NCBI GenBank assembly: GCA_008330645.1
Contig: VLTN01000043.1
Coordinates: 245,114-309,113 of the forward strand
Source of the DNA: Cafeteria roenbergensis
Taxonomy: Eukaryota > Sar > Bigyra > Bicosoecida > Cafeteriaceae
Direction: 5' to 3'
Length of the DNA: 64,000 bases
A program made the translations under genes and the position numbers. The first letter of the stretch is position 1. The number at the start of each line of letters is the position of its first letter. Of this stretch, positions 524 through 37,087 are shown in pieces. The notes beneath the pieces were generated by a model, which saw nothing but the letters and a program-made list of their open reading frames with translations, searched no databases and was not told where the DNA came from.

Positions 524-565
<42 letters not shown>

Positions 566-598
566 AGGAGGGGGGGGGGGGGCGGGAGACGGAGAGGG
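1..598. other. Left-edge region without a supported gene
   Basis: No open frame here has an ATG start, length and composition that persuade me it is a gene. The part next to base 599 is the 3' flank of the giant minus-strand gene and holds a GA/G low-complexity tract. The rest may be intergenic or the end of a gene lying outside the window. Confidence 0.4.
528..582. repeat. GA dinucleotide microsatellite followed by a G run
   Basis: An unbroken GA/AG tract (about 528-562) runs into GGGAGGAG and then a run of thirteen G (570-582). Read on the minus strand it is a C-run followed by a CT tract that starts 16 bases after the stop codon of the giant gene, so it would lie in that gene's 3' UTR as a long pyrimidine tract. 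Such tracts are prone to length change and assembly error. Confidence 0.9.
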
Positions 599-1270
599 TC
601 ACTGCTTGAGGAGAGGAACTGCCCTTCTCGGGCGAAGAAGTGGGTTGTCCGCGGGGACAACCTGAGCTCCGCTCCGGGCACGGCCTGCGGCTGCAGCTGC
701 ATCCAACGTCAGCATGGAGCGTGGTCGTTGTCCGTCTTTGAGGTCGGCTCGAGCACCGAGTCCAGCAGGAGAAGTGGCCTTTGCATCAGGCGAGGCGGAC
801 AGGGTGGCGGTGTGGGATGCGGCCGCCGAAAGCAAAGGCGAGAACCCCACGGGAGTGACATCGCCTGCGTGAGGAGAGCGAAGTGGGGAACCAATGGCTC
901 CCTGCGATCCTTCGCTCAGTGTCCGTGACGACTCTTGGCTCCTTTCGTCTTCACGGGTTGAAAAGCCTGAAGAAAGGCGTCCTCCAGACGCAGCAGCAGC
1001 AATGGTGGTCGGCCGGCGACTGCCTGGCCCAGCCTTAGCAGAGCCAACAGACACATTTTGCCGTTTCCCCTGGCCCCTGCCTCCGCCAGACTGCAGCATG
1101 GGGTTCGCGAACTGAGCCATGCGGTTCACTTGCTGCTCAAGATGGTCTCCGCGCGCTGTTGTCCCGCGCTTGGCGTTGCCAGGGGACGGCCTGGCTCGTT
1201 CACCAGCGCTATCGCCTGTGCACATGGCCGTCGATGACACCCGCCGCCCACACTCGCAACTGATGAACAG
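599..1270 (-). other. Cytosolic tail of the giant protein
   Basis: The last roughly 220 residues follow the final hydrophobic helix and open with a Cys/Arg motif (CECGRR). They are rich in Ser, Arg, Gly and Ala and have no hydrophobic segment, as expected for an intracellular tail. Several R-x-x-S-type sites could be phosphorylated; this is inference. No known domain is recognised. Confidence 0.6.
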
Positions 1271-4200
1271 CTTCGCCACGGGTCCGAACTGAAGGAGCAC
1301 AAGAGCCAGCAGCAGCAACGCGAGCAGCACTTGGATTGCGTAAGCCAGTCCCCCGACGGCTCTCAGGGTTGGCGATTCCTCCGTTTCGTGAGGAGGCACG
1401 AGGGCAAGGACCAGCACCAGGACCACGCTGCGAGCCGCAGCCGTTGCGATCGCCACAGTGCGCGAAAAGCGGAATGCGAAGCCCTGCGTGGCGGCCAGCC
1501 ACGCCAGAAGCGCCACCTGCTTCGAAAGCATCGTCCCGACCTGCACAGCGGGGTACTTGGAGAGGCCAACCAGGAGGGCGGCTGTCGCAAACTTGTCGAC
1601 GAGGAGCACGGATGGGAGCGACCGCCCCGCGCAAGTTGCGTGGTTGAGTCTGCCGGTGGGGTCCGTGAGCCGGACCCCATGGCTGCTGTACGCAAACCCG
1701 CGTGGAAGCAACGCAGGGGGCTGCGTAACCAAAGGCCGCGGACCCTTGCACAGGCGCAGGCACCTGCCGAACGGCCGAGTGCGGCACCCGGACAAGGTCA
1801 CAAGTGCGAAGCACCCCACGACCAGCAGTCCCAGCGAAGCCCATCCGAGCAAAGGCCCGCCGGCTCCGGAAGCACACGGCTGCCGCGCAGCCTCGGCAAG
1901 GGACAGCATTGCAACAGTCAAGAAGAACAACACCACCGTGTTGACGGCGGTCCGCGCGAAGGCGTCCCAGAGCGCAGGTGCGGGAGAAAACCTGGGCCTG
2001 TCGTCTGCTCGAGAACTCAGCTCGCTGGCCCGCCCCGCCCTCACACGGCTGGCTGTTGTCGCCAGCGATCGGCGTGACTCGTTGGCTACGTCAGCCTTTG
2101 AGCTCGAGGTTCTGTGAAGGATGCAGCAGCGGGCGACTCCCATGGCTCCGAAGAATGCGCCGATCACAGCTTGAAGCGCCACGAGCGAAACCAATGCCAC
2201 GGCAAGGAGCGCCTGGGCGGGGACAGACGCCATGATAGACATCACGGAGAGCGCGTGCGGGGCCTGCGCCCCGCAGCCCCAAGAGGTCAGCGTGCCGACA
2301 GGGTCGTCGGGGAATGCCTGCCAGGCGCTATCGCACCCGCCGTCGGTCGCCAGCGCAAGCGAGCTGTTGGGTTGCCCGGCGGAGGCGCCAGGCGCCGTCT
2401 GCGAAACGCTGATTTGGAGGGCCGGCTGCACGAAGTTCCACAGCCAGCCCAGAATGCCAGTGGAGGCAAGCAGAAGTTGTCCGTCGAGCTTGAGCAAGGG
2501 CGGCATGGCCACGTGCAACAGCGACAGCGCGACGGCGAACTGGCCGTGGTCTGCAACATCGAGGACGCCCGCGCCGAATGCGGCCACGGCTGGCAGGACT
2601 GCCGTCACGGTTGCGAAGCTGCCAGAGTGCAACGGGGCCTTTCCGCTCGCGGCTCGGCACTGATCGATTGTCCCCTGCGCGAGCGCTGCCGCTGCGGCAA
2701 CGCCAAGCAGGACTGGATGGATCCAGGCCATGATCGACTCCAACTCCGTGGCCTGGCCAAAGTCGGCAACCGGGAGATGCGGACACTGGGGCGCGTCGCG
2801 AACGACGAACTCGCCAGCGGATCCTTGTTCTCTGACGCAAATCCCGAACTTGGTTGCATTCGAGGAGAGACCTTCCGGATCGACGATGGAGCACCCCGTG
2901 CACCCCAGCGCCATTTCCAAGCCCGAGCATACACCACGGCAAACCGCCTCGCCCCCAAAGTCGGGCGACGCCGCATTGGCGTCCAGTGCTGCGGAAATCT
3001 CCATCGGGCCGCTGGAAGGGCTGCCAGACGCAAAAGCGGTGCCGTTCCACAGCGACGACGAACTGTTCGTGGTGGCGCTGCGCAATCGCTTGAGCACCGA
3101 GTCGCGCTGCATTGGCCCGCTGATTGCCCATCCTCCCTCTGGCGGCGGAACCAGTACTGAGACCAGGACTGTGGTGCCAGGAGCGACGGTGGCGGACGCC
3201 GAAGCCGGCCTGCCCGCCTCCCACAATGCCCGCTGTGGCGCCGTTCCGGCCTCCAGCACGCGCGCTCCAGTCGCACGTGTGCCGGACAACTCGTACCCTG
3301 CCGCGTCTGCCAGTCCCTGCGTCACCCTCCACGCCAGTTGCGCCGCGGAGATTCTTGCGCCTGCCGCCGGCGCGGCAATCGGGCTGCTGCTGCTCACTTC
3401 GACGGGAACAGTCACGCGGACTCCGCACCCTTGCCTGCTGGCTTCTGCTGACTCCGGGCACAGGCCGCACTCATCCAGCACTACGTCACTGTCGTCTCCC
3501 GCGGCACAGCAAGTACCCGCCACGTCCAGGTCGGTAGAGCAGCCCTTTGCCGCAGTGTCCGCGGAATCAGAGTCCAGGCTGACGAACGCTCGCACTGGGA
3601 ACGACATGGTCGCGATTGTGGCGCCCCCACCTGCTGGCTGCGCGCTGAAGACCAGCTGGAATCCGGACCCTACCACGGAGCCAGAGCTTGCGACGCGAAT
3701 GCCGGAGAAGTCGGCCACGCCTCCCGTGGCGCGGACGCTTGTTCCGCCGCCGCGCTGCGTGACGCGGGCCACAGCTTCAAGTCCAGCAACTTCCGTTTGC
3801 TCCGCGCTCGAAAAGAGTGAAATGTGGACCACGGTGCTGGAGTCTGTGGTCACGCGCTCTCCGTTGTCGTCCACGAGCTCCACGAGCGGCGAAGGCGACA
3901 GCGTCTCACCTTGGATCAACGCCCCACACGAGGCAACCACTCGCAGCCCAGTGGCAGCTCCGGCCTGGCCTGACACCTTGTAGAGACCTGTCGACGCGTA
4001 GAACGGCTCTGCCGTTGACCAAGGCCCAGTCTGACTACCTGAGGCCGAGTACTGCAGCAAGAGCAAGACCGGGCCGCGACTACAGGCAGGCACTGCACAG
4101 GTCACGAAGTCGTCGCCGGGCGGGTCGCACGTGCCTGCTGCAGTTCCGTCAACCCGCTGCCTGGACTGGACGTCGGCAGCAACCACCCGGTACATGGCCG

Positions 4201-7200
4201 ACGAGGAAACGTCAAAGTCCCCGCCTTTGAATGTGATGCTGCTGGCTGTCCCGCCAGACATGCCGCCTGCGGGCTCCGATGACGTCACGTACGGCGTGCC
4301 CGCTGTGATGACCGAGCTGGACGACCCTTGCAGGAAGCCCATGCTCGCCAGCCCGCTAGCGCCCCAGTCGGCTGCCTGGGAGCTGCCCTGCCCCGTGGTC
4401 CCCGCTGTCGACGCAGACCCGCTGGCCGAGCTGGTGCCTGCCTGTGACGTGCTGGACGCTGCAGCAGAGCTAGGCACGACCACTCTGGCATCCGACGTCG
4501 TCAACCTGAGGGCACAGCGTCCGAAGGCGCAGAATCCGCTCAGGCAATCGGACGCCTGCGTGCAAGAGTGCTCGAGAGGGCATGGGGCGCAGGCTCCGCC
4601 ACACTGGCCTGGGGAGCAGGCAGATGCGGGCTGGCACACGCCCCCCAGGCAGGACTTGGAAACGCAGTCGGTGGCAGCGGAGCAGCGAGCGAACACCGAG
4701 CAGAGGCGCGCGGTGCCACAAACAGCGCCACAGTCCAGGTCCGCTTCCCTCCCTTCCTGCCAAATGCCGTCGAAGCACGACCCGGTCCCGCAGGTCCCGA
4801 GGCTTGCGCCCGAGAACGCAAAGCGGCACTCGCCCGAGGCGCACTGCGAGGCTTGGGAGCAAGCGCCCCCGACGCCAGTCGGGCCGCAAGCTGGTCCAAC
4901 GTCCACAGCTAGCTCCCCAGGGTCAAGGCGGCCGTTGGAGCAGTTGGAGGGGAGAGAGCACGTCCCGGCGCGGCAGAGGGACCCTTGCATGCAGTCCGAG
5001 TCGACGAGGCAGTCCGACCTGGGCGGGCAGGCCGCCTCGCAGCTCCCTCCGCCGTCCACGCAAGACTCGTCTCCGGACAGCACGCCATCCGCGCAGTGCT
5101 CCTGTGTGCACCGGGCCGAGGCTGGGTTGCAGAACCCTGACAGGCATTGCGCCGAGGCACGGCAGGCACGGCCGCTGGCAAGGAGAGAGCCGCACGGGCC
5201 TCCTAGGTCGACGGCCGTCTCGCCGAGAGCGCTGTCGAGCACGCCGTTGTTGCAGTGGTCGGCAGGCATGGCACACAGCAATGTGAACGGATCCCGGGAG
5301 CCGGTCACGCACGCGGCGTCCGAGGGCGCGGCCTGGCCTGCTTCACACTTGGGACACCCGGCCTCGCCGCAGCGGTTCTCGCAGGTGCTCACGCAGGTGC
5401 GGGACGAGCAGCGAAGGCCTGGGCCGCAGTCTGTTGACGCGTCGCACTCTCCTCCCTCGGGACAGGCCCCGCAGAGGCCTCCACATGTGCCGTTGAACAA
5501 CGGGCAGAAGACCGCCGACCCAGCATCACCGGCTGAGCTGGATCCCGCTTCCAATCGTGCCGAGCCCGACGAGATGTTCCGCATGGCCTCAATCGACAGC
5601 CTCGCGCAGAGTCCGCCGCTGCACGACCCACCGAGGCATGCAGCGTTGGTGGTGCAGCGGTCGCCAGGCAGGCACTGCGGACAGCCGGACGAAGGCTCGC
5701 CGCAATCCACCCCTTGCTCCAGCCCGTCGCGGATGCCATTGTAGCAGCTAGGCGCCTGGCACACGCCGCCCGTGCACTGCCCTTCGCATTGGGCATGCGA
5801 GGTGCAGGACACACCGGGCTTACAGAGACTGCAGCGCGGCCCGCCACAGTCTCCGCCGGGAGCCTCGTCAGCTTGGGCGATGCCATCGCTGCAAGACGGT
5901 GCCGCACAGAAGCCGCCGGAGCACGACTTGGAGGCACAGTCTGCTCCCACGGTGCAGCGCGAGCCCGCAGAGCAGCGAGCACAGCTGGTCTGGCCGCCGC
6001 AGTCCACACCGGTTTCGTCGCCATTCCGCCTCCCGTCAAAGCAGCTGGGGGGCTCGCACCGTTTTGCCAGCGGGTTGCAGTTGCCTGAGGTGCAGTCGCG
6101 ATCCAGCTGGCACGACGCGAAGTCGCCGCACGCTGGGCAGGTCGGGCCTCCGCCGTCGACGCATGTCTCTTCGCCGCCCTTGACTCCGTCAGTGCACGTG
6201 GGAAGCGGAGCGCAGACGCCGGACACACACAATGCAGTTGAGCAATCGTCCGCGGACGCGCACTTCCGCCCCACTGCGCAAAGGCTGCAGGCGTTGACAC
6301 TCGAGGGCACCAACGAGCCAGCGGTACCGCAGTCCACGTCGGTCTCGCGAGAGGGGTCCAGGATCCCGTCGCTGCAGGTTGGGGCCTGGCACGTTGCGTT
6401 GGTGCATGCGCCTCCCGTCGAGCAGTCTGCGGCAACAAGGCAGGACTCGCCAAGCTGGCACTGGTGCTCACCGGGGCGCCTGTCCACGCAGGGCTCCTCC
6501 CCGTTGCGCACCCCGTCGCTGAGCGAAGCCGGGGCGCAGACTCCTGGGTTAGCGCTGGTGAGGTCCCCTTGGGCCGCCCCCACTGCCCTGCACACCAGGG
6601 AGCGGCACTGGCGATCAAACACGCAAGCGCCAAAGTCTGCCACGTTTGTGGTGGAGTTGTCGACGAGCTGAGGGGCCGTCGCACCTCCTCCGCTGCCGCC
6701 TGTTCCAGGACTCAGGGAGCTCGCCTTGCAAGTGCCCATGAAGCAAACCAGTCCTGTAGCACAATCGCTGGAAGCCAGGCAGGCCGAGCCGGAGTGGCAG
6801 CCGCTGCAGTTCCCACCGCAATCGACGTCCGTCTCAAAGTAGGCCTCGCCAAACACCCCTTGCTGAATGCCATCTGAGCACGATGGCGCCTGGCACACCC
6901 CACCCGAGCATACCTGGCTCGCGCAGTCGGAGGCAGTTTCGCAGGACGCATTGTTCGCGCACTTATCTGCGCAAGCTGGCCCGCCGCCGTCGATGCAAGT
7001 CTCCAAGCCGTTGAGCAGGCCGTCCGAGCAGGTGGGCACCTCGCAAGCCTGGGTAAAAGGCGAGCAAAACATTTCCCCTGCACAGACAGAATCGTCGCCG
7101 TCGCACGGTGACTTCTCCGGGCACGGCTGGAACGGACAAGGGCCCCCCTTGCCGGAGCAGTCGACACCGGCCTCGCGGACGCCGCCCGGACTGTTCCGCA

Positions 7201-10200
7201 CGCCGTCGCTGCACGTCGCCGCCATGCACACCCCGTACGCCTCCACGCCCGAAACGCAGTTCGACGCCGACCAGCCGGACGGCTGACCCGCAGGGCACAG
7301 CCCGCACGGCCCGACCGCCCCGCTACAGTCCACGCCCAGCTCCGAGTCCGCCTTCACGCCGTCATCGCAGCGCGCCTCCGCGCACGTGCCGTTGGCCGCG
7401 CACACGCCCGACGCGCATACTCGGCCAGCCGTGGCCTGGGTGCACTCGGCCCCGCCGTCGCAGCGGAACCCGCACGCCACCTCGCCGCAGTCGACGCCGA
7501 GCTCGGCCCCGTTGCGCACGCCGTCGCTGCAGGTGGGGGAGTCGCACGTCCCGGAGGTGGCGTTACACACGCCGCTGGAGCAATCGGAGGCACGCGAGCA
7601 CTCCACGCCCGAGTCGCAGGAGGCCGGGCAAGGTCCGCCGCAATCGACGCCGGCCTCGCGGATGCCGCCCGGACTGTTCCGCACGCCGTCGCTGCACGTC
7701 GCCGCCAGGCACACCCCGTACGCCTCCACGCCCGAAACGCAGTTCGACGCCGACCAGCCGGACGGCTGACCCGCAGGGCACAGCCCGCACGGCCCGACCG
7801 CCCCGCTACAGTCCACGCCCAGCTCCGAGTCCGCCTTCACGCCGTCATCGCAGCGCGCCTCCGCGCACGTGCCGTTGGCCGCGCACACGCCCGACGCGCA
7901 TACTCGGCCAGCCGTGGCCCGGGTGCACTCGGCCCCGCCGTCGCAGCGGAACCCGCACGCCACCTCGCCGCAGTCGACGCCGAGCTCGGCCCCGTTGCGC
8001 ACGCCGTCGCTGCAGGTGGGGGAGTCGCACGTCCCGGAGGTGGCGTTGCACACGCCGCTGGAGCAATCGGAGGCACGCGAGCACTCCACGCCCGGGTCGC
8101 AGGAGGCCAGGCAAGGTCCGCCGCAATCGACGCCGGCCTCGCGGACGCCGCCCGGACTGTTCCGCACGCCGTCGCTGCACGTCGCCGCCAGGCACACCCC
8201 GTACGCCTCCACGCCCGAAACGCAGTTCGACGCCGACCAGCCGGACGGCTGACCCGCAGGACACAGCCCGCACGGCCCGACCGCCCCGCTACAGTCCACG
8301 CCCAGCTCCGAGTCCGCCTTCACGCCGTCGTCGCAGCGCGCCTCCGCACACGTGCCGTTGGCCGCGCACACGCCCGACGCGCATACTCGGCCAGCCGTGG
8401 CCCGGGTGCACTCGGCCCCGCCGTCGCAGCGGAACCCGCACGCCACCTCGCCGCAGTCGACGCCGAGCTCGGCCCCGTTGCGCACGCCGTCGCTGCAGGT
8501 GGGGGAGTCGCACGTCCCGGAGGTGGCGTTGCACACGCCGCTGGAGCAATCAGAGGCACGCGTGCACTCCACGCCGGGGTCGCAGGAGGCCGGGCAAGGT
8601 CCGCCGCAATCGACGCCGGCCTCGCGGACGCCGCCCGGACTGTTCCGCACGCCGTCGCTGCACGTCGCCGCCATGCACACCCCGTACGCCTCCACGCCCG
8701 AAACGCAGTTCGACGCCGACCAGCCGGACGGCTGACCCGCAGGACACAGCCCGCACGGCCCGACCGCCCCGCTGCAGTCCACGCCCAGCTCCGAGTCCGC
8801 CTTCACGCCGTCGTCGCAGCGCGCCTCCGCGCACGTGCCGTTGGCCGCGCACACGCCCGACGCGCATACTCGGCCAGCCGTGACCCGGGTGCACTCGGCC
8901 CCGCCGTCGCAGCGGAACCCGCACGCCACCTCGCCGCAGTCGACGCCGAGCTCGGCCCCGTTGCGCACGCCGTCGCTGCAGGTGGGGGAGTCGCACGTCC
9001 CGGAGGTGGCGTTGCACACGCCGCTGGCACACTCGGGCCCGAACGTGCACTGCGCGAGGGTCGAACACGGCGAGCACGGGCTGGAGCCCCCGTTGCATTT
9101 CGTGGTCCCTGCCGGACATCCGACGTTTCCGCCCTCGGGCTCGGGTTGGCAGCGCCCAGCGGAGCACCTGCTGCTGGCACAGTCGGCGTCGACGCGGCAA
9201 GTGCTGTGGTCTGGGCAGCGAGCGTCACACACGCCGCCGCAGTCCGTCCCTGCCTCCGCTGCCGCCTTGATCCCGTCGGAACAAGACTCGGCGAGACAAT
9301 TGCCGTCGGCACCACAGTTGCCGCTGCTGCAGTCCGTTCCAAGAGTGCACTCCGAACCGGCGCTGCAGGGCGCAGGGCAAGGCCCGCCACAGTCGACACC
9401 AGCCTCCTGGGCCAGTCCGTGCCAGTTCCGAACACCGTCACCGCAGGTGGCCTGCGCGCATTTAAGCACTTCAAAGTCGCACAACCCACTCCCAGGAATG
9501 CAGTCTGCATCGCGAGTGCACTCTGCTTTTTCCGTTGTGAATTGCAGCATTGCTCCGGCGGCAGCGTTGCCTGCCGCATCCACGACAGCTCCAGGGGCAA
9601 GCAGGAGCGAATAAGATGCCCCGGACTGCAGACGGCGTTGGGCAGGAACGGCCGCCACGACGATTTCTCGCCCTATGCTCTGGCCTTCCAGTGCCGTGCC
9701 AGCCGCAGTGGCGTGTTCCACCACAGGCAGTGCAGCGACGTCCAGTCCAGCGAACGCCAGCGGGACAGCGACGGTCGATCCGCTAGAATCCAGCGCCGTG
9801 GCGTTGGCGTTTCCGCTGCCGGCTGCCCGCGCTGCTACGGCAGCGGCAGGGCCAGTCAATCGAATCCACGTCGCAAACTCGGAGGCGAGCTGCACCTGGC
9901 GCACCGCCTCCGCGAATGAGGTCGGTGCAGCCGCGCCCGGCGGCCACCAAACCACGGCAAGCGCGCCGGCGCCTGTGAACAGCGGGGCTGGCTGCTTTGA
10001 GAGCACCACGTCCTCCGAGAACCGAAGAGAGACTTGCGCAAGCGCGGAGCTTGCAATGGTCCATCCGCTGGCGGGGGATGACGAGACCAAGACTGGGGCA
10101 GACTCATCCGCCTGCGTGCGGACTCGCCACGCAGACGCCCCCGAGTTCGGAAGCAACGACGACGCTGCCACCGGGTTGCCTGCGACATCCTTGACAAATT

Positions 10201-13200
10201 GCGGCCCGCTTAGCAGAATGGCGAACCATGTCTTGGACCGTGCGAGCGACGCGCTGCCGAGGGTCACGACCAGGGACGGAGTGCCAGCTCCCCGGAACCG
10301 ACCCGGAGCAACTGCAAATGCGGCCTCGTCGGTGAGCTCTGCCTCGCTTGACTTCTCGGGGTCCACCGCATTCGCCTGCTCAACGGTTTCGACGCTGGGA
10401 GGCAGGGCGTAGATTCGCAGCACGGCAGAATCGGCGACTGTCACTGCTTCGCTGAAGGTGAGAGAGACAAAACTTGCCTCTGCGTCAACGCTTGCCGAGC
10501 CTTGGGCCGGTGTGACTGTGACCAGCGAAGGAGGGGACACGTCTTCAATCGTGAACTCGAGCGCACGTTGGGCAGACGCTGCTGCGGCAGCGGTGTCGCT
10601 GACGAACCGCGGGTCTGGCAGTCCCGGAAGCTCGTTTCCTGCAACATCCACCACTGCACCGGCCGAGAGTGTGACCGCAACCTTCGCCTGCTCGGGGATG
10701 GGCCCTCTTGCTGCCGGCCAAGAGACGGTCAGGGTGGCATCGTCAACTGTCAGGGACTCGGCAATTGCTTCGGCAGAATCAGCCCCCAGATCCACGCTGA
10801 GCAGTGATTGGCCAGGGGTCGCAGCGACGGCGATGGTGCCGGAAGCACCCAAGCGGATGGCTTCGTTGAACTGCAAGGTCACCTTTGCCAGCGACTGGGA
10901 AGCTCCCGTGGCAGCATGGTGCGGGACCGAAGCCCGCAACATTGGCGCCGTGCTGTCCGGTGCGGTCGTGAAGGCCCAGTCGCCCGCCTGAATCCCCGGA
11001 AGCGCGTTGCCGCTCCCGTCGACGAACGCGCCGTCGGCCATCGTGACGTAGTATCGAGCGTACGTCTTCGAGATGGCAGCTCCCTGAAGCCAAAGAACGA
11101 CGGAAGACGAATGGACTGATACATCTGCTGCTGCCCGCACCCGGAGCTCTGCAACCGGTGAGGATGTGTCTGTGGCATCCCAAACCTTCACTGTCGGGCC
11201 TTGCGGACCAGAAACAACCGTTACTGGCCCTGGGAACACCGCCTCAGATACGTCAATCTGCAAACGTCGAAGGCCGACATCCACCCCGGATGAACTAGGC
11301 TCAGGGGTGAGGCCCGACACGATGGGCGCAGTCCAGTCTGCCATTGCAAACTCGTCCCCAGCCGCAGCAGCGCTTGCTTGTTGATTCGGGTTGCCAGCGC
11401 TGTCGAACACGGCGCCGGCCTCCAGCCGGACTCGATACCGTGCACCCGAAACAGCCCACGGGCCTTGGCGTGGCTCGCCCACCAAATTCACCGAAACGCG
11501 GCTTGCGAATTCAACCGTGCCGCTCTGGTCAGCGCCATCTGAGACAGTGACTGCGGCCAATGCCTGTGCCGAAAGAGTCGCTGCAAGGGACCCGTTGCCG
11601 TGGTGCAAAATGGACACAGCCAGCGCAAGGGATGAGTTGATCCTGACACCCTCAGAGACAGTCCACAAAAGCGACGCCGTAGCCGCCGAGCTTGGGTTCA
11701 CGAGGCCCCTGGCGTCTCCCGTGACCTCGAAGCTGGTGATTGTGGGAGGGTAGGTGTCAGGCTCCGCGCGCCAGCATTGCGTGGCTCCCTTAAATGCGTT
11801 TCCAACTGCGTCCAGAACGGCACCCTGAGGCAAGGTCGCGCAAAAGTGCTGCAAGTACACCTGGAGCATTGTTGCTGGCAGTTGAAGCTTCAGCGTGGAG
11901 CCTGCAGCGACCGCAACTCCGGGCTTGGAAAGGTCCACAATCGCAATCGACAGACCAGACGTTGCATCGCGGACTTGCACTGTGCCGTCGCCGCGCATGA
12001 TGGGCTCTGAAAAGGCAAAGGTGAAGGCTCCAAAGCCAAGGTGAACGTTGCTCTCGCCCGCGGAGGGTGTAGACCCGAGGAGCTTGGGAGGCTCAGAGTC
12101 GATGCGGGAAAAGGTCCAGCTCAGCTCCGGCAGAGAGTTTCCTGCACCGTCGGATAAGCATCCTGCAGAAATTGTGGACTTGATCTCCACCGAGCTTACA
12201 GTCAGTTTCGATGCGCTGGCTGCGCTGCCGTTGCGCAAGACTTCGGCAGCACCAAGAACTTCGAGCTTCGAGCCCTGAGTCCAGCTCAGCATCTGGGCGT
12301 CGTGCTGCTCGAGCTCCGTGGCCTCCGAGGAACTGGTCACAGGGCTGAGCGCGCCGCTTGCTGATAGCCGCAGAGCTGACGGTGCTGTCAGCACCTGGGA
12401 CGGATCGCTCAAGTTGGCCGCGACGACGTAGGCCGCTGTCCCTGGCGCCGCAGCCGGGTCCCGCGCCTCCAGCATCCATTGGCACGACGAGTTCACAACG
12501 GACACGAGCTCGGACAGCTGCAAGTTCAGTCGAGGAACTTGACCACGGGGCCAAGAGACGCTCGACGCTCCTGCGTCCGGCCACCGGCCAACAACCTGAG
12601 GGGGCTCGGCATCGGGGGCGGTGTGGAAGCTCCAATCCAGGTCGCGCGCGCCCAGCCACGAGAGACCCGCTGCATCGGCCACCACATCGCCCACAAGATT
12701 CAGCTTGTACTCAGTTGCTGGGGAGCGGATTGCACCGGCAGCAAGCTGAACAGTCAGGGCGGCTCCCGTCGCCAGAGCAGCCTCGCGGTCGAACAAGTCG
12801 ACCGCTTGGCGCAAGGCCCACGAGGTGTTCGCTGTGCGCTCCAACACCTGCAAGGTGCCTCCAGCGGGTACAACGGCTTCGGAGAACAGCAGCGTCACCT
12901 GGCTGAGCTCGAACGCGCGCACGGTTGCGTTGGACCGCAGCGCCGGGATTGCGCCAACAACTCGAGGCGGATTTATGTCGGTGGTTCGAAGCCCCCACGA
13001 CGCGGAGCCCAGCTCTCCTCTGTTTGCATTCCCTGCTAGGTCCTCAACGAACCCCGGCCCGATTCGGACGTGGTAGGCAACTCGGTCCTCAGCCAATGCC
13101 TCGGGAGGCAGGGTCATGTTGACCCAGGTGTAGTGCCCCGGCTCCAGCCCTTGCATCGCAGACTGATCGGCCGTTGCCACGCTCGTGTTGATGGCGCTCG

Positions 13201-22200: not shown

Positions 22201-25200
22201 CATCGCCACCGTGGCTCCCACCTGGCCCAGAGAGCGAAATGTCCCGAGCAGAGGCGCAAGAATGCTCCAGCAGCGCCATCGAGGGAACTGGGTCTGCCGC
22301 CTCCGAGGCGATGAGCCTGGCAGTGGAGAACACCTCGGCGGCAGCAATTTCCATCGTGGGCGCAGTGATGGTGCCGGCAATCGTCAGCAAGGACTCGTCT
22401 CCTCGTAAATCGACGTGGACGGAGCAATCTTGCTGCGCCGGCCCCGCTGCGCCATCCGCCGGCGCGCACTGCAACTTTCCGATGCTACTCAACTCGACAC
22501 CACTCGAGCCGCAGCCAAAGGAGAGGCTCGACAGGAATGTCGTGTAGTGAGCAAAGTAAACTTGCCAGAACCGCGCGGTCGTGACCCGCTGGAATCGAAC
22601 GAGCACTACCTCCGTCGGGCTGAAGTCGGAAGCTTCCACGCTCGCTGGCCCCATTGGGAACGGGCCTGTGCCCGTGTACGGATACTTGAAGTCAGCTGCG
22701 GCCGATGCATTCATGGAAGAATTCGACGCGAAGAACTGCACGTAGTTGCTTGTGGACAGAATCCTTGCAAAGGACAGCGAAACCGGGCGTCCAAAGTCAA
22801 ACTCAATCCAAGTGTTCCCGGCAACGTTCACCCCGGTTCGCGGGTCGGCGTCAGAGAGAGCATCGCTGCTCTGGCGATGCGCGCTGGCGCCGTCTCCTTG
22901 GCTCGCCATCCACAACGGAGGCAGCGTTTGACGGAGGAGCGGGCCGCTGGCACCGCAGATCGAGGCGGCCCCGCCGCCCAAGGAGAGAGTCTCTGCGAAA
23001 GCCGCTTCTTCGAACCCGTTGTCGCTGACTTTCAGGCTGGCTGAGGCTTGAACCGTTCCGCGGAGCAGCGCTGATGCCACAGCGAGCTCGAAGCTGCCGC
23101 CCTCAAGGACGGACGTGGGATCCAGCTCGACTCGTCGTGCGCGCTCCGTTGTGTCCTCTGCGATGCTCACGAGCGCTCCGTTCCGAATACGAACGAGGTC
23201 GACCGTGTCAGCAAGGTCGGGCGGCCACTGCGTGTGGGGCACCGGCGAGTAGCCAACGCGGCTTGGGATGACGGCTTTGGCATCCACCACCATCTCGGTC
23301 CTTCCCGCCAGCTCCAGGTAGACCGTCCCAGCTGCACCGTGCCGCGTTCCAAGCGCCTGAAAGCCGCCACTTGCTGAAAGATCGACGCCCTCGTCCAGCC
23401 CGTTGGCTGCAAATACGGCAATTCTCCCGCCTCCTCCCGCACCGCCTCCGTAACTGGCGGGGCCCGAGCCACCCTTGGCCCGCACCGAGCCAACGCCGAC
23501 GATGCTTCCTCCGCGTAGCTGCACAGACCCGCCCGCACCGGCTCCAGACTCGACGCCCAAGCCTCGGCCCGACACGAAGTTTGCGGAGTCCGCTCCACTG
23601 GCGTCGATCACTGCCCCGTTGCCAAACTCCACCCACTTCGACCCCTGCACAAGGATCCGGCCGCCGCCGCGAGCCCCTTGAGCACGCGACTCGCCTGACT
23701 CGACGCCGTCCGCGCCGGCCCCGCCAAACGACCACGGTGCTGTAGCGAGGCCGTGCGAGAGTCCTGGGAGCGAGTTTTCTCCACATTGCGCCATCTCCGT
23801 CGTGCCGAGATGGCCGTTCGTCCCACCATCTCCGCCATGGCCACCTCCGGACCCTCCCGTTGACACGCTGCGCCCGCATGCCGCCTCGGACCGGCCCGCA
23901 GGCCTATCCGCAAAGCCAGCTCGGCGCGAGTATGGCCGACTTGGGGGACCGGCTCCGGCAGCATACACCCCGGTGGTCGGTGTGACACCTGGCAGCATGT
24001 CGAGGCGAGTGTGCTGGTCAACGATCGATACTGTCGCTCCGCGGACCACACCGCGCACGGCAGTCATATGCAGGGCTGATGTGCCGCGGGTCTCGACCTC
24101 GCAAAGCTCGCCGGTGCATTCCAGCAATCCATCAAACAGGAAGTGGTCACCCTCGCATCCCCACTCGGCCTCAGCAGCGTACAGGCCGTACCCTCGGATT
24201 GCAAGCAGCCGCCAGTGCGTTGCTTCGACAAGAGGCCATACCCACCGACGCCACCTGTTTCCGTGGGATGTGGGAGTCTCGGTCATGACCGAAACGAAGA
24301 CATCAGTCCAGTCTTCGGCAACGAGCGGATCGCCGCCTTGGCGAAGCGCGCTGATCTTAATCGAATAGTAAGCCGAACCAGGTGAAGCCGACTTGATGCG
24401 CAGCGACGACAAGGGCACCGGCGTGGGGAACGCAAACACCAGCGTGTGGTCGGTAAAGTACGTGGTCATGTCGCCGTCCTGCAAGGTTGCTCGCGGCCGA
24501 GCAGCGCCCAGATGGTCCGTGACTGTGAACCTGCCACGCAGCCCGCCGGCAAGACACCTCCCGGCCATCGAAAGCTGCTGTGCCTGGGCGGCAAAGGCGG
24601 CATCCCGGACTCGCAAGCTCGACTCCCCGCGAAGAATGGAGCTCAGGTCCGTTTGAACGGCGAGCGCACGAACGTCCAGGGCAGTGGCCAACGCCCACGC
24701 ACCTTGCTCCATGGAGATGCTCTGGGCTTGCCATATGGCGCCCTGCGAGGAAGCTTCGTCGGCTGGTGGCACGGAGTCGCCCACGCGCAAAGCCTCCGAC
24801 GGGTGAAGGCCGACGCGCACAGTTGCAAGCTTGACTCGTGCTAGTGAGAGCGGGCGGGCCAGCTGAAGAGGCCATGGCGTCTCAACCTCGGCTGCCCAAG
24901 CCCGTCTGGCGTCGTTGCGAATGTGGAGCTCCCGCCTATTGAGGTCGGAGACGAGGACTGTGCCTGGCGCTCCGAAGCTGTCGACGTCAGACACTGCGCC
25001 GGTGGCAGCATGCCGGGCGTCGTTCTCAAGTTCGACGAGGCCGCGATCCGCGAGAATCGCAATCCTGCCGCCGGAGCCTGCTCCTGCATGGTAGGGGTAT
25101 CCGCCACCACGAGCAAAGGCCGTACCTGGCAGCGCGACGCCGGCTCCGCTGCTCAGCAAGATCGACCCGCCTGATCCACCACCGCCAGCTCCGTATTCCC

Positions 25201-28200
25201 CTGCTTTCGGGGCGAAGTACACGCCAGGCAGTCCGTCTGCTGACACCTGGCCAGCAAGCAGGATTGCACCACTCGTGCCCATGCGGATTCGCCCGCCTCC
25301 AGAGCCCCCAAGGCCTGAAGCCTGCTCGGGCTGTGCCCAGGAGTAGCCGCTCGCGCCACCGGAGCCAAACTCGCGGGGTAGCTCCGCATCACCGTACGAG
25401 AGGCCGCCGTGTATGCGCGGGTGGGCAGCCGGTGTAACCACGTCTCCACATTCGCTGAGCAAGACGTTGTGGGGCCCTCCGCGGCCGCCGTGCCCAGCAC
25501 CAGACCCAGACGCGGTGCCTCGGCACACCTTCTTTCCGATGTTTCTTGACGGCTGCAGGGGCGTTCCGGGCCCAGAGTCTGCGGGGTGACCCAACCCCGT
25601 TGAGTCCACAATGCCTCCGTGACCAATCACCACCTCCTGCGCCGAAACGTCCACGTCGCCGCCACGAACCCTGCCCCGTGACGCAATCACTGACCTTCTG
25701 GTTTTAAATTCAACAAGACAACGCTCGGTTTCGCAGTCCACGGAAGTGGGAGCGGTCATGCCGACAAATCGCTCGTCGCACTCGAACCCGAGCTCGTACA
25801 ACTTTGGCGTGTACGTGTAGTGCGAAGACACAACGCGAATGCCAGTAATGTTGACCAGTGGCTGCTGGAAGTGGATGCGGAACCTCCCGCGCTCCCCCAT
25901 GAGCTTCTGTCCGGCGTCGAAGCCTGTGCGAATGTCAAAGCTCCACTCTTGCCCAAACTGCGTGATCACCTCCTCGTCCTCGAAGTTCGCAAACACTGCA
26001 CCTGCATCCACCTCGCGCTCCGCACCCTCGCCGTTCCCTCGAAGCCCATACACGTAGCTGTAGACCAAGTCGTGGGGGTGGGCGCCAACGACTCCAGTCA
26101 ATGCGTTCACATTGGTGGCCACTCGCGAGCCTTGGCTGTCCACGAAGTACAGGTCAAACGCCTGGTTGAAGCTCACAAACGTCTGCAGGTCGCCGTCGGT
26201 GAGCGCGCTCAACTCGGAGACAGAAAGGAGTGCCTTTTCGGGGTCGCGATATCCGCGGAACCGGTGCACCTTGACGGTGTCCTGCGCTGAGCACACTGCT
26301 TCATGGACCCATGCCGTTCCTCCCTGCTCCGCTGGCGCCGCTTGGAGGGAAATCGGGGAGTCGTTTCTTTCGGCCACTTCGTCGCGGCCTAGAATTTCAA
26401 CGTGCCCGGTTGATGCAACCTTTCCGTTGCGGTGCATGAACAGAACATCAGACCCAACGGACACTGACGACCCTGGCCCGGTAGCTTCAACAGCCCCATA
26501 CAGATCGATTTGGCGGCCGCGCAACGTGATCTTGCGGGCCTGAAGCGACGGAAGGGTACCGTTGAAGGAGCGCAAAGGCTCGACAGAGGCGGTATGGTGG
26601 ACGCGGATCCGCCTGCCCATCAGAATTTGCTCGTCTGTGAGCGCAACACGAGAATTGTCCCCGACCCAGGCTAGGTTCAGCGTGGACGGCGCGTCCTCCG
26701 GCCAAGGCGTGACAGCAGCCACAGGAACACTGTTCTTCACCATGAGCCGCTCGCCAAGAGCTTCCGTGACGACATAGAGAGTCCCAGACGCGCCAGAGCA
26801 AGCGGCCGACGCGCTGCCGCCCTGCACCTCTAAGCTCACCCGTGGCTCGACGCCCTGGCTGGCCCGCACCGCGACGCGTCCTCCGCCGCCCGATCCTGAA
26901 GCACTGGCGTACGCACCACCTCTTGTGGCGACCACGCCAAGCCCGCGCACCGCTCGGGCTGTCAGCGAGACGCTTCCACCAGCCCCGCCACCTCCGCCAT
27001 GGGATTGAGCGGAAAAGTACACGCCCGGCTGGCCGTCCGCGCTGACTCGGGGGGGGGTGGCCGCGTTTGGCTTGCTCAAGGACTGCTCGAAGTAGATGTC
27101 TCCAGCCGTGGCTTCGATGCTCACGCGGCCTCCGCCTGCGCCGGCGTACCCAACAGCCTCCTGGCCGTTGACGAAGACTGTCTGCCCGCCAGATCCAAAC
27201 TCCCAAGGGCTGGTCGCGAGGCCGTACGAAACTCCAGCGACGGAGCTTGGCGCGCAGGGTTGAGACGTGGCGCACGACGGTCCTCCGTGCCCTCCGTGGG
27301 ATCCGCCTGCGCCTGCCACCACCGACAGCTCAGGACAGGTCCGACCGGAGTATTTCGGGTCGTGCGGTGTCCAGATACTGCGGCCAGGGCTCCCGGGGCC
27401 GGCTCCAGCCGCATACCCAGCTTGATCTGCGTGGATATCGTGGCCAACGCGCACGTGTGGTGCGCGCAGGGTCACGGAAGAACCGCTAATTTCGCCGAAC
27501 GCGTGCACAATGGAAGCTGGATGAGTCAGGGAGATCGCCAGCGAGCAGCCACGCTCCTCGCACGAAATTGCAGGGGCAGTCTCGGTTGTGCCGCTCGAGC
27601 TAGGGATCATGCTCAGGCCCGTCGAGGTACACTGAGGCTCGACCCGGCCGAGCAGCAATGCGTAGCCTGTGTTGTGCTCAATGAGCACGTGTGTTGCCGC
27701 GACTGGGTGCCTCATGGTGAAGTAAATGACGTCCGAGGCAGGAGCGTACAGTCCGTCCGCCGCTGGAGTGGGAGCTTCCTCCGTCATTTCGCCCGAGACT
27801 TGCTTCCAGTCCGGGTCTTGCAACGAGGCAGTCACGTTGTTCATTGTGGAGAGGCGGAGAGACTGGTACACGCGGGCCTCGGTAGTTTTGGGCTTTTGCA
27901 ATCGCAACCGAACCTGGGAGAACGTCACGGGCCTGTCATACACCAGCACAATACCTCCAAGGTGGCCAGTCACAGGGTTGACGCACACTCCAGTCTCGTC
28001 GTTGTCGTCCAACAAAAACTGTCTGGCCTCCACATCTGAGGTGGCGCAGTTGTGGCCGGCGTAGTCCAAGTACGCGCCGTGCACCGACTTGACCTCTGCA
28101 GGGTTCATCAGCTCGGACGCGGACGAGCACTTCGGGGCATCGCCGTCGATTCGCCCGGAGCCCAGCGGGCTGTGAGCCCAGCCAGGGTTCACTCGCGAGT

Positions 28201-31200
28201 GCCCTTTCCCGAACCTCCAAATCATGGCCTCCGGCTCGAGGGAATTCGCGAAGGACTCGTCGGTGATGACGAGCGACTTGCTGGCCCTGATATGAGAGCC
28301 CTTGACGCCGGCGCCCTTGCGCAGCTGGACGCGGAGCGCATCCACCATGAAGCTGTTTCCCAGAATGTAGGCGGTTGGCCCGACCCTCACTTGGTCGGCT
28401 TTCAATCGCCGCCCGTCCTGCACCCACAGCCGGCCGAAGGCGTCGACGCTGACAAGGTCTAGGTCGTCAGGCGTGTCGCTGGGAAGCGGCGTAACCGCCA
28501 CGGGCGCAACGTGGCTGGTGCTTTCCACGAACAATGCCGAATAGCCCGTTGTTGTCGTGACGATCGTGCCTCCTGCGGAGGTCGCGTTGGAGTCGGTCCC
28601 CGCGCTCTGGCCCCAGGCGCGCAGAGCCAGTCGCGAGTCAATATCCGCCGTTGCACGAATGGCAATTCTTCCTCCGCCTCCAGCACTTCCCGTGCTGGTT
28701 CCGCCGCTTGCCGTGATTTCGGCAACGCCGCCGACGTACTGCGCGGCGATATGGATGGAACCACCCGACCCGCCGCCGCCGCTGTGGTAGTGTCCTGGGC
28801 CTCCAGGCATTCCATCGGCCTGCAGTTTTGAGGATGCCAACCAAAGCCTGTTCGTGCTGACATGAATCACGCCGCCCCCTGCCCCTCCTCGCGCGCACCA
28901 CCTAGACAGCACTCCAGAACCCAAGGGGAGCGGGCTGGGGCAGTCGAACTCCCATGCCATTCCACCTCCGGACCCAAATGCGTCGGGAGTCCATGCGAGG
29001 CCGTAGGGCTCTCCAGCGCTGAACGGAAGGGCATACTTGGGGTCATCAGCTGCGCAGCTGGCCGAAGTCGAGCGCTGCACGGACACACCTCCCTGGCCAC
29101 CATGGGAGGCACCCGCACCGCCCAGCCGCTCGAGGCACTCTCCTGGCGGCTCGACAACCGCAGGAGTGCCGGGGCCGGCCGAGTCAGCATAGCCGCGGCC
29201 GTTCGCATCGACGGCCACCGCCCCGATCGAGAGCGCCTCCGTGACAGACAGCTCCATGCGGGAGCCACTGACAGCCCCGTGGATGATTGCCCGCGCTCCT
29301 GCCGCTTTTTGCTTCATCTGCAGTCGGCACAGGTAGCCAGTGCACAAAAGCTTGCTCAATGGCTGCAGCACCCACATCGGGTCCCCGCCACAGCCCCAGT
29401 CAACTTTGCTGAGCGCCAGAGTCTTGGTGGTGCTGGAAATTCGCCAGTATCGTGCCCTCTGCGCAGGCCAGCGCACGGCAATGTCGGTTTCGCGCAGCGT
29501 CGTGTCTTGACTCCATGCTGGTCCGCCGGACCACGCGCTACGGAACGTCACGCCGTCTGTGGACAGCCACACAGTGACTGCCCCGGTGCGGCTTCCCGGG
29601 AAATCTTGAGCCATTGTCGAAACAACCACTCGGTCAAGGGACACGCTCTGGCCAAAGTCGAATTGCAGCCAATTCTCGTTTTCGGCGCTCCACGAAACCC
29701 CTGTTCGAAAGTCTTGATCGCTCAGGCCGGCGCTTGCCCCGTCGATGACGTGCATAGGCTCAACGCCCTTGCCCGTTTTGTGCACACCAGCCGCATAGCG
29801 ACGGTATGCGGCTCGCTCGGAAGCGTCACACCTGGCATGTAGCCTCGCTGCCGTCGCGGAGTGATCGGCTCGCCAATCGGAATCGTCCACGATGGTGTGA
29901 TTGACTGCCTCAATCGCGCCGAGCAGCTCCATCTCAAGCACAGAGACTCTGACGGACTCGTCACCAACAACCATGGCTGCCGGGCCGACGTGCAAATGAC
30001 CCGCCGATACGGCTGTGCCTGGCGTGGCGTGAACGACGACATTATCAAGAATGGCAAAGTCCAGGAAAGCATCGGGAAGCGGCTCGATAAGCGACACGTC
30101 GTGTTGAGGAAGCCACAGGGCCGGGTCGGATGTCCACTGCGACCGCGGCAGCGAGGCATCAGGAGCTTCATTCACATGCGTTCTGGACCAAGGCCACGGC
30201 GTCACAGCCTGCACATCTGGGTTGCCGTTTGCTGCTCGCAAGTGGAGCGTGCGGTTGAAGGCGGCCACGGCGGTAGCCGAGCTCGTTGCGGGCTCGAGTG
30301 TCGCCGAAAAGCGCGTGGGATCAACTGCCACCTCAATGAGAACCGACCCGGCGCCCCCGAAGCAGGTGACTGCATAGGTGGCTGCCCCTGCTCGCAAGCG
30401 CGACACTGTCTCCGGCAGTGGCTCCACACCTGTCCGAAGCAGAATGCGACCACTCGCGCCGGACGCAGAGCCGGCTGCACCGCCTTCGACGTTTGCGCCG
30501 CCGCCAATGTCCATCACGGTGCGAGCCGAGATTGCAATTGAGCCGCCGCTTCCGGATCCGCCAGAGGTTTGGTGCCACGTGTCTGCGCTTCCAGGCGACC
30601 CTTTGGCCAGCAGGCACTCTTGGCACCGCGGAGACGTGCCGAGCACCAGCGCCTGGCCAGCAGACACCCGCACCACCCCTCCACCAGATCCACCCTGGCC
30701 GTGGTGCTGCCCCGAGGTCGAGACCTGGAAATTGTAGCTGTCGGCGCCTCCGCTTCCCCAAGTGCTGGGGAGCGCGACCGAGCCGTATGCCCTTCCCCCG
30801 TGCAGGTGGTTCCGGGGATTCGCCGCAACCGGGCTGCCGCATTCGTCAGAGAAGAGGGTGCAAGAGCGGGCCCCGACGCCTCCGTGCCCAGCTGACGAGC
30901 CAGAGCGACGGACTCTGCATTTCGACCGGTCGACTTGGGGTGGAGCTCCAGGACCTGTGTTGGCCGGGTGGCCCAGCCCGCTGGCAGAAACGTCGCCTGC
31001 AACGACCAAGAACGGAGCACTGAGCGAGATGTTGCTTGCGCGAATCGTGCCCTCCAGTACAACATGCGAAGATTTCCGCTGCAGGTCAACATCAACGCGG
31101 CAGCCCCCAGTGCGCTCCCGCCACGAATCACCGAATCCGCCTCCGTGTTCGTCGACTGTCAGCTCTTCGCCACAGGTGACTCGCGAAGCGTCGGCAAACA

Positions 31201-34200
31201 CCGTCAAGTCGGCGCCGCAAACGGGCATCAGCTCGCTAACTGTTGAGTACGCAACTGGGTGGTAGCTGGCAAGCGAGACACGGAAGGCATTCGCTGCCGC
31301 CCCTTGAGGTTGGAAGCGGATCATGGTGTTGCGCGACTGGCCGGCGTACGCCGTGTTCGAAACACGAGACCAATTTGCGTGGTTCGGGACCGACTGCCAG
31401 TTCTGCCGACTTCCGGATAGACGCTCGTTGTATGCGTCAGAAGGGTCGAGACGGCCAGCGATGGGGGACGACGCAGCAAAGAGGTGAACACCCGAAAACG
31501 TTGCCTCGTGCCCGGTGTGAGCCAGCATAAACACGTCTTGAAGCGGCACTGACTCTTGCGGGTGGAGCTCCAGATGCAAGAAGCCATAGTACACCGCTTC
31601 CGTCACCGCTGCAGGCGTGTGCGCGTCGGCGTCCGCGAGCAAGCCATCGCTGGTGTACACGTCCTTCTCCCTGGGGGACGAAACGGCGCGCCACCCAGAG
31701 ACTCGACCCTGCTCGTTGGTGAACCGAGGGTCGCACGCGAGAGCATGGGCCTCGGATCCACGCGACTCGATGTCATCCCTGTGCCACACGGCGTGGGTTC
31801 CTGGGGAGCCGGCCAAACCCGACTTTCCTCGGAACGACCTGTCCGTCCAACTGAGCCCGCGAGTGGCTGTCACAAACCCGTGAATGTCAGCACGGCGCAC
31901 GTCAATCGTGAAGGCAGACCCGTTGATTCGACTTGACTGGTCCACTTGGAGGGATTCCGCACGCAGAGTGGCATTGTCAGGCAGCTGCAGCAGAGCCTTC
32001 TCGGTGACGATGACCCGATGGAGGCGGTTTGGCGACTCGTCGAAGGCGCCCGAGTTTGCAACGAAATCGTCTGGGAGCGGAGTGAACACGCCTGGGACGG
32101 AAAGCTTCAAGCCGGTGTCGCGGGCAGGGGCCAACTTGTCCGCCACGATGAGGGTGCGGCTGCTGTTTGCCTCAACCACGACCGTCCCGGCTGCGCCGCT
32201 TCCCACCCGGTCGTCAACCCCCGAGAATCCGTACCCTTGTCCGCCGTAGGCATGAGCCTGGATGCTCTTGGGAACCCTGGGGTGCTGACTTTGTACCAGG
32301 ATTCGGCCCCCGCTGCCGCCGCCCGTGGGAGGGTACGCAGCTTGGCTGTCAGCGCTGATCTCCACCGCGCCGAGCAGGACAGCTGCACTGACCAATATCC
32401 CGCCACCGGAGCCACAGCCACCTCTGATGCTCCCCGTCAAGGCTGCAGGGGCCCCTCCCTCGGCCCGGAAGCTTGACGTCACGCCCGTGCCCAGCTTGAG
32501 AGTGGAGAGAGATCTGACGGCAATGATGCCGCCCCCGCTCCCTGCCGTTCCTGCCCAAGCAGCGGACGCCTCGGGAAGCAAATGAACTGGGTCGCCGCCC
32601 CCGCTGCCGAACTGCTCGTGTGGTTTCAGCGCCAGCCCATTGGCCTGGCCACCGGTGGAAACTGGTGGCTTTGCAGGGAGCTTTGGACCCAGGCCCTCCA
32701 TGTACCGGTTCGAGCCGCCGTGGCCCCCGTACGCCCCGCCAGCACCCGACGCCACCCGAAGCAGGTCAGCAAGCTGCGAGGGCGCAGGCGCTCCTGGCCC
32801 CTCTCCTGGCCCGTGGCCAAGCGCGCTCGTGTCAATATGACCGTAGAACTCTATGTCCGAGCTGGAGGTCACGGAGACATTCCCGCCTTTCAACGAGGCC
32901 TCGACTACCATGTGCAGGCCCGAGCCATGCGCCTGCTGCTGGCCAAGGCGCCCCTGCGCCGTGATTTCGACGGGGCAGCGCCTCGATGAGCAGCTGACTG
33001 ATACCGACGCCTCGGTTGCGTCCGACTTGATCGTCACGCCTCCCGGTGCACAGAATGGTCGCACTTCAGACAGGGCGAAGTGCGCACCGCGCACTAGCTG
33101 AAGCTCCACCGCAAGGACAGGCCTGGCAAAGCGCACCTGCCGAAGGAAGTGCAAGCTGTTGCGGTCGTCGATTCCCGCCGAGGACGCGTCCACGTGCTGG
33201 AAGGCGTCACCTGCGGACTTGCGAAAGTTAATGTACCAGTACCATCCTTCACTCTCGCTGGCCTCCGGCAAAAATCCCGGCCCCTGAACCTCCAGCCCGT
33301 TAATCCAAGTGGGGCGGTCGAATTGAATGATTGGGTACTGGCTATATGCGGTCCGGAAGCCGGTCATGTTGTCCCCGTCACGGAGAGACTCTGGATCGAC
33401 CCAAGCGCCGCCATTGAAGCCATCCAGGCTCATGGTGACGTCAGTCTCTGCCCACTTCCATGGGATATCAAAAAGCCTTCCGGTTGTGGGATCGGCCCCT
33501 TGATTCTGAGCGCACTGGCGGAATGACCGGGGCTTGCCGGAACCAGCAAGCATCTCCTCGTCACTTGCCACCAGCCGGACGCCAGCCCTCGCTTCGACCG
33601 TCGCACTCTGGTCCAGCAAAATTTCCTGAGCACGAATGTTGACCTTCCGACCAACCACCTTGCCCAGCGGTTCGACCAGCAGGCCGCCCACCGGCAGCGC
33701 CGCGTCGCTGGTGTTCGCCGACGATGCAGCAACCATTGCGCCCCGGGTCACGTCCAACTGTCCCAGCTGAAGTGAGCTTGTCAAGTAGGTCTCCCCGACG
33801 GGGGTCACTGCCTGCAGCGCCGAATCCTGAGCGGCACCAGCGTCGATGACAAGGGTGTGACTCTGCCCCACGGTCAGGAGGACAGTGCCTGCGCCTCCCC
33901 CGCACGGCGCCGCTGTGCTTCCGTACGCCGCGACGGAGGGAGCCCAACCGGCGGCAATGCTGTTGACAAGTTCCTGGGAAACAGCGACGTGAATGCGGCC
34001 TCCACCCCCCGCGCCTCCGACTTGGCCGGGGCTCGCGTATCCTCCGCCGTGCGCCGAAATGATGCCCTTCCCGATCATTCGGTCCGCAACGGCCACAACA
34101 GACCCGCCTGAGCCGCCTCCGCCGCTCCCATCAGGGGAAGCTTCTCCGTCGGCGACGATACGCCCTGAGGTGGCAATGAAGAGACTCCCCCCAACTGCGG

Positions 34201-37087: not shown

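Follow-up and report, generated by a model that had tools for sequence, protein, structure and literature searches.

The window analysed here is a 64-kb stretch of DNA from Cafeteria roenbergensis (now called Cafeteria burkhardae), a tiny marine stramenopile flagellate that feeds on bacteria. Its minus strand carries, at positions 599-37087, a single uninterrupted frame of 12,162 codons plus a stop that is a real coding sequence. The gene looks to be a genuine one and part of a little-known family with two giant relatives in the same genome, and its product, of predicted mass ~1.23 MDa, is probably a giant protein of the cell surface. We consider the chances about even that this product is a giant membrane-anchored surface adhesin or receptor of ~1.2 MDa, encoded by a single gene and built on a TRP-related membrane domain. 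Throughout, C43 is the contig that holds the window (C43:245114-309113), and labels such as C8, C10 and C64 designate other contigs of the same genome, whose 36,303,456 bp in 167 contigs were searched for relatives.

A sequence-only reading of the window had proposed an uninterrupted 36.5-kb frame for 12,162 residues, too long to have stayed open by chance, and both points are borne out. Indeed, translation of the minus strand over 599-37087 gives a sole stop, which is terminal, within a stop-to-stop open frame of 12,260 codons (602-37381), and the C10 paralogue aligns with it from end to end in one frame. In each of the other five frames of the same interval there are 150-264 stops, and the longest run free of them is 380-935 codons; a chance open frame is therefore excluded. 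Coding is also apparent from the way in which the paralogues differ. Over 11,534 codons aligned between C43 and C10, the identity at codon positions 1, 2 and 3 is 0.58, 0.67 and 0.40, and the third position is the least conserved in 13 of 13 bins; over 8,398 codons aligned with C64 (residues 1-8600), the corresponding values are 0.52, 0.61 and 0.34. This third-position pattern is the mark of protein-level selection across the full 36 kb. The 3′ tract shared by C43 and C64 (bin 9001) has no codon-position contrast (0.98, 0.99 and 0.98). By 1,000-codon bin (window 602-37087), third-position G+C stays at 0.66-0.71 up to codon 9,000, reaches 0.83 in codons 9001-10000, which belong to the Cys-rich part, and is 0.53 over the final 162 codons.

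Hidden in-frame introns were considered and rejected, as the comparison with the paralogues revealed no suitable insertion in the window copy: a single insertion of at least 12 residues is specific to it, of 13 residues and located in the tail. The start codon is supported by the three giants sharing a Met and a hydrophobic leader at the same point. According to the genome report, annotated genes of Cafeteria have 1.67-1.89 introns each (PMC6972860). If the genome available per gene, 4.28 kb, is taken as the maximum coding length, a 36.5-kb gene should have at least 14 introns, and the Poisson probability of finding none is at most 7e-7, bearing in mind that published intron counts may themselves include false introns. 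For the neighbouring genes, seven of which had been credited with one or two introns in the sequence-only reading, a domain scan of three adjacent stretches in each frame is at most suggestive. The earlier remark that single-exon proteins of this size are very rare in eukaryotes is fair in general, but single frames are a habit of this family, being found on C10 and C8 and, for ~10,490 codons, on C64. Very large single-exon genes are also known in intron-poor protists, such as trypanosomatids.

Using the N-terminal 1,333 residues as a query, we identified two other loci in the genome, in open frames of 11,924 and 11,219 codons. On C10 the gene is complete, from 717712 to 682019 on the minus strand; it encodes 11,898 residues in a single frame, is co-linear with the window protein and is 30-66% identical to it per 500-residue bin. 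The C64 gene starts at 155542 and proceeds in one homologous frame to ~187,020, so that ~10,490 codons count as homologous, the open frame of 11,219 codons overrunning the homologous frame change. It was aligned to about window residue 10,170, with 34-50% identity per bin over residues 1-8500. Past ~187,020, homology continues through the final 5.4 kb of the contig in other frames that contain stops. Another contig, C132, overlaps the end of C64 with 98% identity over ~10 kb; it includes the C terminus, with the stop at 10519, and its own frame is broken within its first 4.1 kb. We read the frame breaks on C64 and C132 as unpolished contig ends. The order of parts that had been described as coherent, with a signal peptide first and a membrane block and tail last, recurs in the paralogues.

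In the public record, no match to residues 1-5000 was found among 453 scored candidates of ~5,500-17,500 residues sharing most words, and none among 7,996 such candidates of ~1,320-4,200 residues. The 8,000 candidates of ~420-1,330 residues that share most words included one fragment, FNF27_05460 from Cafeteria, of 684 residues, set against positions 2336-4342, which is 97.5% identical by BLAST to residues 10916-11592 of the window protein. No paper describing the giant protein by title or abstract was present among the matches listed, subscription journals and preprints being outside the scope of that search. The published model would favour the view that the region is not one gene, and that separate transcripts or genes happen to share a frame or were joined by the assembly: it begins at an internal Met (residue 10916) and is short. 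Nonetheless, it leaves the window sequence at about residue 11584 to end, as judged by eye, in an out-of-frame peptide, and this end can be read from the window DNA, with two differences, once a GT...AG stretch is skipped. Because the skipped stretch encodes the invariant W, F, P, D and P residues of the six-member alignment of membrane blocks (alignment A5), the published intron is probably false, with the TRP-like block lost from the model, and it is the model that is likelier to be in error. Moreover, the order of parts is kept at three loci, one of them a complete frame and another a single frame for most of its length, codon-type conservation is seen in each bin of the C10 comparison, and there is one leader and one multi-helix block. 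Altogether, we regard a region composed of several genes as very improbable, and the case suggests that genes of this kind can be fragmented by automatic annotation.

The membrane block near the C-terminal end (residues 11441-11960; 1208-2767, on the minus strand like all the parts described below) was defined from hydropathy, alignment A5, Pfam and hhalign. Its hydropathy profile has 8 peaks, one of them long enough for two helices, which would give about 8-9 helices, and it is 29-39% identical to the blocks of five paralogues, with many invariant residues. Among the six family members of the alignment, three pass the 28.5-bit cut-off of the TRP-like family PF06011 (C8 with 30.1 bits, C61 with 32.0 and C89 with 33.4), and C125 stays below it with 21.3 bits. 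When the family profile was compared by hhalign with that of six other loci hit by PF06011 (C1, C4, C7, C20, C27 and C48), a probability of 70.6% was obtained over 97 columns, and of 56.5% over 474 columns with a second setting. These results, weighed with those below, indicate that the membrane block of the giant is probably a divergent relative of the TRP-like/Pkd2 family PF06011, not to be filed as a member, and that it may work like one. In the whole genome, PF06011 matches 16 places at E≤0.001, 11 of them above the cut-off; 10 are in open frames of more than 2,000 codons, and none is a giant. The matches at C7:755780, C1:1341446, C48:279781 and C4:815595 sit in open frames of 3,125-4,203 codons. 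Large ectodomains on TRP-like blocks may thus be common in this genome.

At the other end, a signal peptide is predicted from hydropathy at residues 1-31 (36995-37087), with a hydrophobic peak at residues 11-29 found at the same place in C10 and C64. Residues 67-6755 then comprise 12 Gly-rich units, which start at intervals of 405-703 residues; many of the segments separating them hold a discoidin-like domain. The units, defined by the 12-row alignment A3 in which 15 glycines are invariant, are located, from unit 1 to unit 12, at 36038-36871, 33878-34762, 32168-32998, 30338-31120, 28538-29350, 26768-27568, 24938-25750, 23318-24151, 21698-22420, 20408-21205, 18128-19162 and 16832-17626. A single unit searched in its own genome returned 22 matches, all 22 within the three giants, a count to be taken as a lower bound, as C8 holds two such units by eye. 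A profile of the units matched a bacterial hyaluronoglucosaminidase entry at E 0.01, which we count in favour of a surface adhesin or receptor. Pattern scans with Gly-rich units gave 587 pattern matches in a prokaryote genome collection (four units used) and 600 in viral contigs, and neither yielded a confirmed relative, a weak negative in both cases given that one or two short patterns were used.

One discoidin domain (F5/8 type C) is recognised by Pfam, with a PF00754 match at residues 2446-2554 scoring 35.3 bits, above the gathering cut-off of 28.2. This domain (residues 2432-2587; 29327-29794), taken from all three giants, seeded an iterative profile that detected three further sites on C43 in round one, at residues 4174-4329 (24101-24568; E 3e-4, no Pfam match), 4720-4879 (22451-22930; E 3e-11) and 5832-5983 (19139-19594; E 0.003, with PF22633 below its cut-off at E 0.096). 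After iteration the sites numbered eight in total, two of them weak. The sites added were residues 1796-1977 (31157-31702; no Pfam match) and 2997-3175 (27563-28099; no Pfam discoidin match), and the weak ones residues 645-783 (34739-35155; E 7e-5, no Pfam discoidin match) and 1275-1371 (32975-33265; E 0.002, no Pfam match).

Several observations weigh against reading the protein as an adhesin or receptor with discoidin-like domains on a TRP-related block. In the discoidin iteration, rows match their own profile by construction and the E-values apply to a small set of the giants' own slices; scanned alone with Pfam, none of six inter-unit segments reached the discoidin cut-off. Sequences of solved structures contain no match to the Gly-rich part at E≤0.9 and no credible match to the membrane block, whose ribosomal-protein hit in the PDB (E 1.4) was dismissed as chance. 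Six weaker hydropathy peaks in the presumed ectodomain are also above threshold, and we read them as buried strands. The window block itself reaches 17.6 bits against PF06011 (E 0.0018), below the 28.5 cut-off, its likeness residing mainly in about the last 110 profile positions, and the Pfam scan of the C10 block gave no PF06011 or TRP match. Of the six loci used in the profile comparison, C20 is itself below the cut-off. In an hmmsearch with the six-locus profile, in which the decoys were not membrane proteins, only C61 (E 6e-7) was clearly above the decoys, followed by C8, C125 and C89; by full-sequence score the window copy (E 2.3; best stretch E 0.0009) was not above them, and neither was C10, which came last at E 25. 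Finally, C10 lacks ~485 residues of the Cys-rich region described below, or ~3 of 4 of its tandem copies, so this array is not essential to the design.

Between the Gly-rich units and the membrane block lie four parts. The middle region (residues 6756-7780; 13748-16822) has no Pfam match at E≤1 and is ~35-47% identical to the paralogues. It is followed by an array of at least seven bacterial immunoglobulin (Ig)-like Big_5 domains (residues 7781-9185; 9533-13747), matched by Pfam PF13205 with 145.4 bits over 7 separate stretches, above the gathering score of 23.6; an NCBIfam CopC match in this array, far below its cut-off, was set aside as a cross-match of Big_5. The Cys-rich region (residues 9186-10870, that is 1,685 residues; 4478-9532) contains 13.8% Cys and has matches on eleven contigs besides those of the giants. 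Within it, a 483-bp tandem repeat present in 3.9 copies with 98% matches (7157-9027) encodes, in frame, a 161-residue Cys-rich unit. Lastly, a linker without a Pfam match (residues 10871-11440; 2768-4477) leads to the membrane block.

Residues 11961-12162 (602-1207), which follow the last hydropathy peak, form a presumably cytosolic tail. It carries the motif DNPLLRPRR (623-649), which corresponds to DNPML[RK]PRR in C10, C8 and C61; the end of C125 reads LNPMLKPER, and that of C89 is without the motif. A degenerate pattern of the motif, which does not match the window's own codons, has five matches in the genome, each close to the end of a family locus (C8, C10, C61, C80 and C93), and its reversed control has none. 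Just past the stop codon is a 35-bp GA/TC dinucleotide run (528-562).

The family extends beyond the giants. Ten further loci match both the C-terminal and the Cys-rich queries (C8, C16, C26, C61, C80, C89, C93, C109, C116 and C125); C49 matches the C-terminal query alone, and C9 and a second place on C26 match the Cys-rich query alone. These lists are lower bounds, and alleles or fragments may be among them. On C8, the gene consists of one frame of 3,364 codons (a product of ~3,358 residues) in which a leader, two Gly-rich units, a coiled-coil-like stretch, a Cys-rich part, a membrane block and a tail succeed each other, as judged by eye except for the shared parts. Its full comparison with the giant indicates, for this one pair, that the membrane end is constant while the ectodomain differs. 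Many family loci (C10, C61, C64, C80, C89, C93, C109, C116, C125 and C132) are close to a contig start or end (within ~15-20 kb) or belong to very small contigs. Such a placement may reflect a subtelomeric position or breaks of the assembly at similar copies; the two common types of telomere repeat were absent from the window and from the two contig-end pieces scanned.

The 3′ end of the gene appears to have been homogenised recently. A 10.9-kb tract (172-11053), which begins near codon 8679 and extends 427 bp beyond the stop, is near-identical to C132:70-10907 and to the end of C64 (182.5-192.4k), with a DNA identity of 97.2% to C132 and of 97.9% to C64 up to the end of that contig. Upstream of the tract, the protein identity between C43 and C64 falls to 34-50%. 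A gene-conversion tract of ~10.9 kb is the simplest reading; it is favoured over an assembly chimera, which is less likely as the source of this identity, because C132 has the divergent bases of C64 before the breakpoint and departs from C43 again ~427 bp downstream of the stop. When C43 and C132 are compared over 2,135 C-terminal codons, 37 gap columns being left out, the rates of synonymous (dS) and non-synonymous (dN) substitution are 0.048 and 0.019. Their ratio dN/dS of 0.40 suggests that this part of the protein is under purifying selection; base errors remaining in C132 could bias the value.

How such a protein might work can be proposed from its layout. The ~11,400 N-terminal residues would lie outside the cell, where the discoidin-like domains would attach to sugars, whether of bacteria or of surfaces, and a stalk would be made up of the disulfide-rich and Ig-like parts. 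More tentatively, the membrane block might convert pulling or contact at the ectodomain into a signal, of Ca2+ or another kind, and the tail might serve as a docking site. Channel gating by the membrane block is inferred. Polycystin-1-type receptors and the Chlamydomonas complex of PKD2 with mastigonemes are alike in design, with a long extracellular part on a TRP-related membrane part, and we claim no homology; unlike polycystin-1-type receptors, the giant frame has no PKD, GPS/GAIN or polycystin domain in Pfam scans. Giant bacterial adhesins with arrays of Ig-like (Big) domains likewise have Big_5 modules in a very long repetitive surface protein, whereas the window giant has a multi-helix C-terminal block. 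Fungal TRP-like proteins of PF06011 (S. pombe Pkd2, yeast Flc and Aspergillus TrpR) share with it a multi-helix C-terminal membrane block followed by a tail, and three of the shorter paralogues described here score above the cut-off of that family. According to two reports, the fungal members have a small putative lipid-binding domain (ML/TRP_N) outside (PMC11277609, PMC8618638), in contrast with the ~11,400 residues of other domains of the giant. The former describes S. pombe Pkd2, a member of the TRP-like family with a nine-helix domain and a cytosolic tail, as passing Ca2+ under membrane stretch (PMC11277609), and the latter, on Aspergillus TrpR, defines TRP-like channels by PF06011 and counts S. 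pombe pkd2 as one (PMC8618638). Chlamydomonas PKD2 is reported to be a channel linked to the polymers that form mastigonemes outside the cell (PMC10846610), and stationary-phase Cafeteria burkhardae to up-regulate adhesion-type extracellular domains (PMC7852580). Both cases are analogies, not tests.

Two other accounts of the protein have to be weighed against an adhesin or receptor on a TRP-related domain. It could be a giant surface adhesin or coat only, with the TRP-related block as a plain anchor that gates nothing and an ectodomain that protects the cell or makes it adhere to prey, to a substrate or to other cells nearby. The discoidin-like and Ig-like domains of the ectodomain and the stationary-phase response of Cafeteria are consistent with this, as are a membrane block well below the PF06011 cut-off in the giant and without a match in C10. 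Yet one helix would be enough for an anchor, while a block of 8-9 helices, with many invariant residues, has been kept in five paralogues, including C8, whose ectodomain differs greatly. We judge an adhesin without gating possible, at roughly one chance in three. The protein could instead be structural, in an extracellular organelle such as the flagellar hairs (mastigonemes), with its C terminus as the membrane tether. The anterior flagellum of stramenopiles bears tripartite tubular hairs, and mastigonemes also act as mechanosensors, according to a review (PMC11412368), and PKD2 with its mastigonemes in Chlamydomonas is an earlier example of a channel to which a long external thread is fixed. 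On the other hand, our search found no paper naming both Cafeteria burkhardae and mastigoneme; papers naming Cafeteria roenbergensis and mastigonemes were found, and the review, which is one of them, mentions neither TRP nor a giant protein. In addition, the Pfam scans of the frame gave no Sushi match, and its Ig-like domains belong to the bacterial Big_5 type. A role in mastigonemes therefore seems improbable to us.

The adhesin or receptor on a TRP-related domain can be taken further, to a proposal that we hold unlikely but worth stating. One polypeptide would combine a glycan-binding tether of ~11,400 residues with its own TRP-related channel and act as a one-molecule sensor of contact or force for captured prey, within a diversifying family of paralogues in which the membrane ends of two giants would recently have become alike through gene conversion, their ectodomains remaining far apart. 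As a rough guess, the tether might be perhaps 0.1-0.3 micrometres long.

The rest of the window contains genes of other kinds. Its neighbours include matches to a ZIP zinc transporter (43562-44872), an NNMT-type methyltransferase (47697-48857), the JmjC/cupin family (49.5-52.0k), an ion channel (Ion_trans_2 in two stretches, 52090-52911) and a protein kinase (54931-57822). No RNA family reached its gathering score in the 64-kb window.

What is added to a sequenced model grazer is an intronless gene for ~12,000 residues, accompanied by two giant and about ten shorter paralogous loci. If the proposed function is true, it would become testable how a phagotrophic protist senses and holds its prey, and whether a tether can pull on a TRP-type domain of its own chain.
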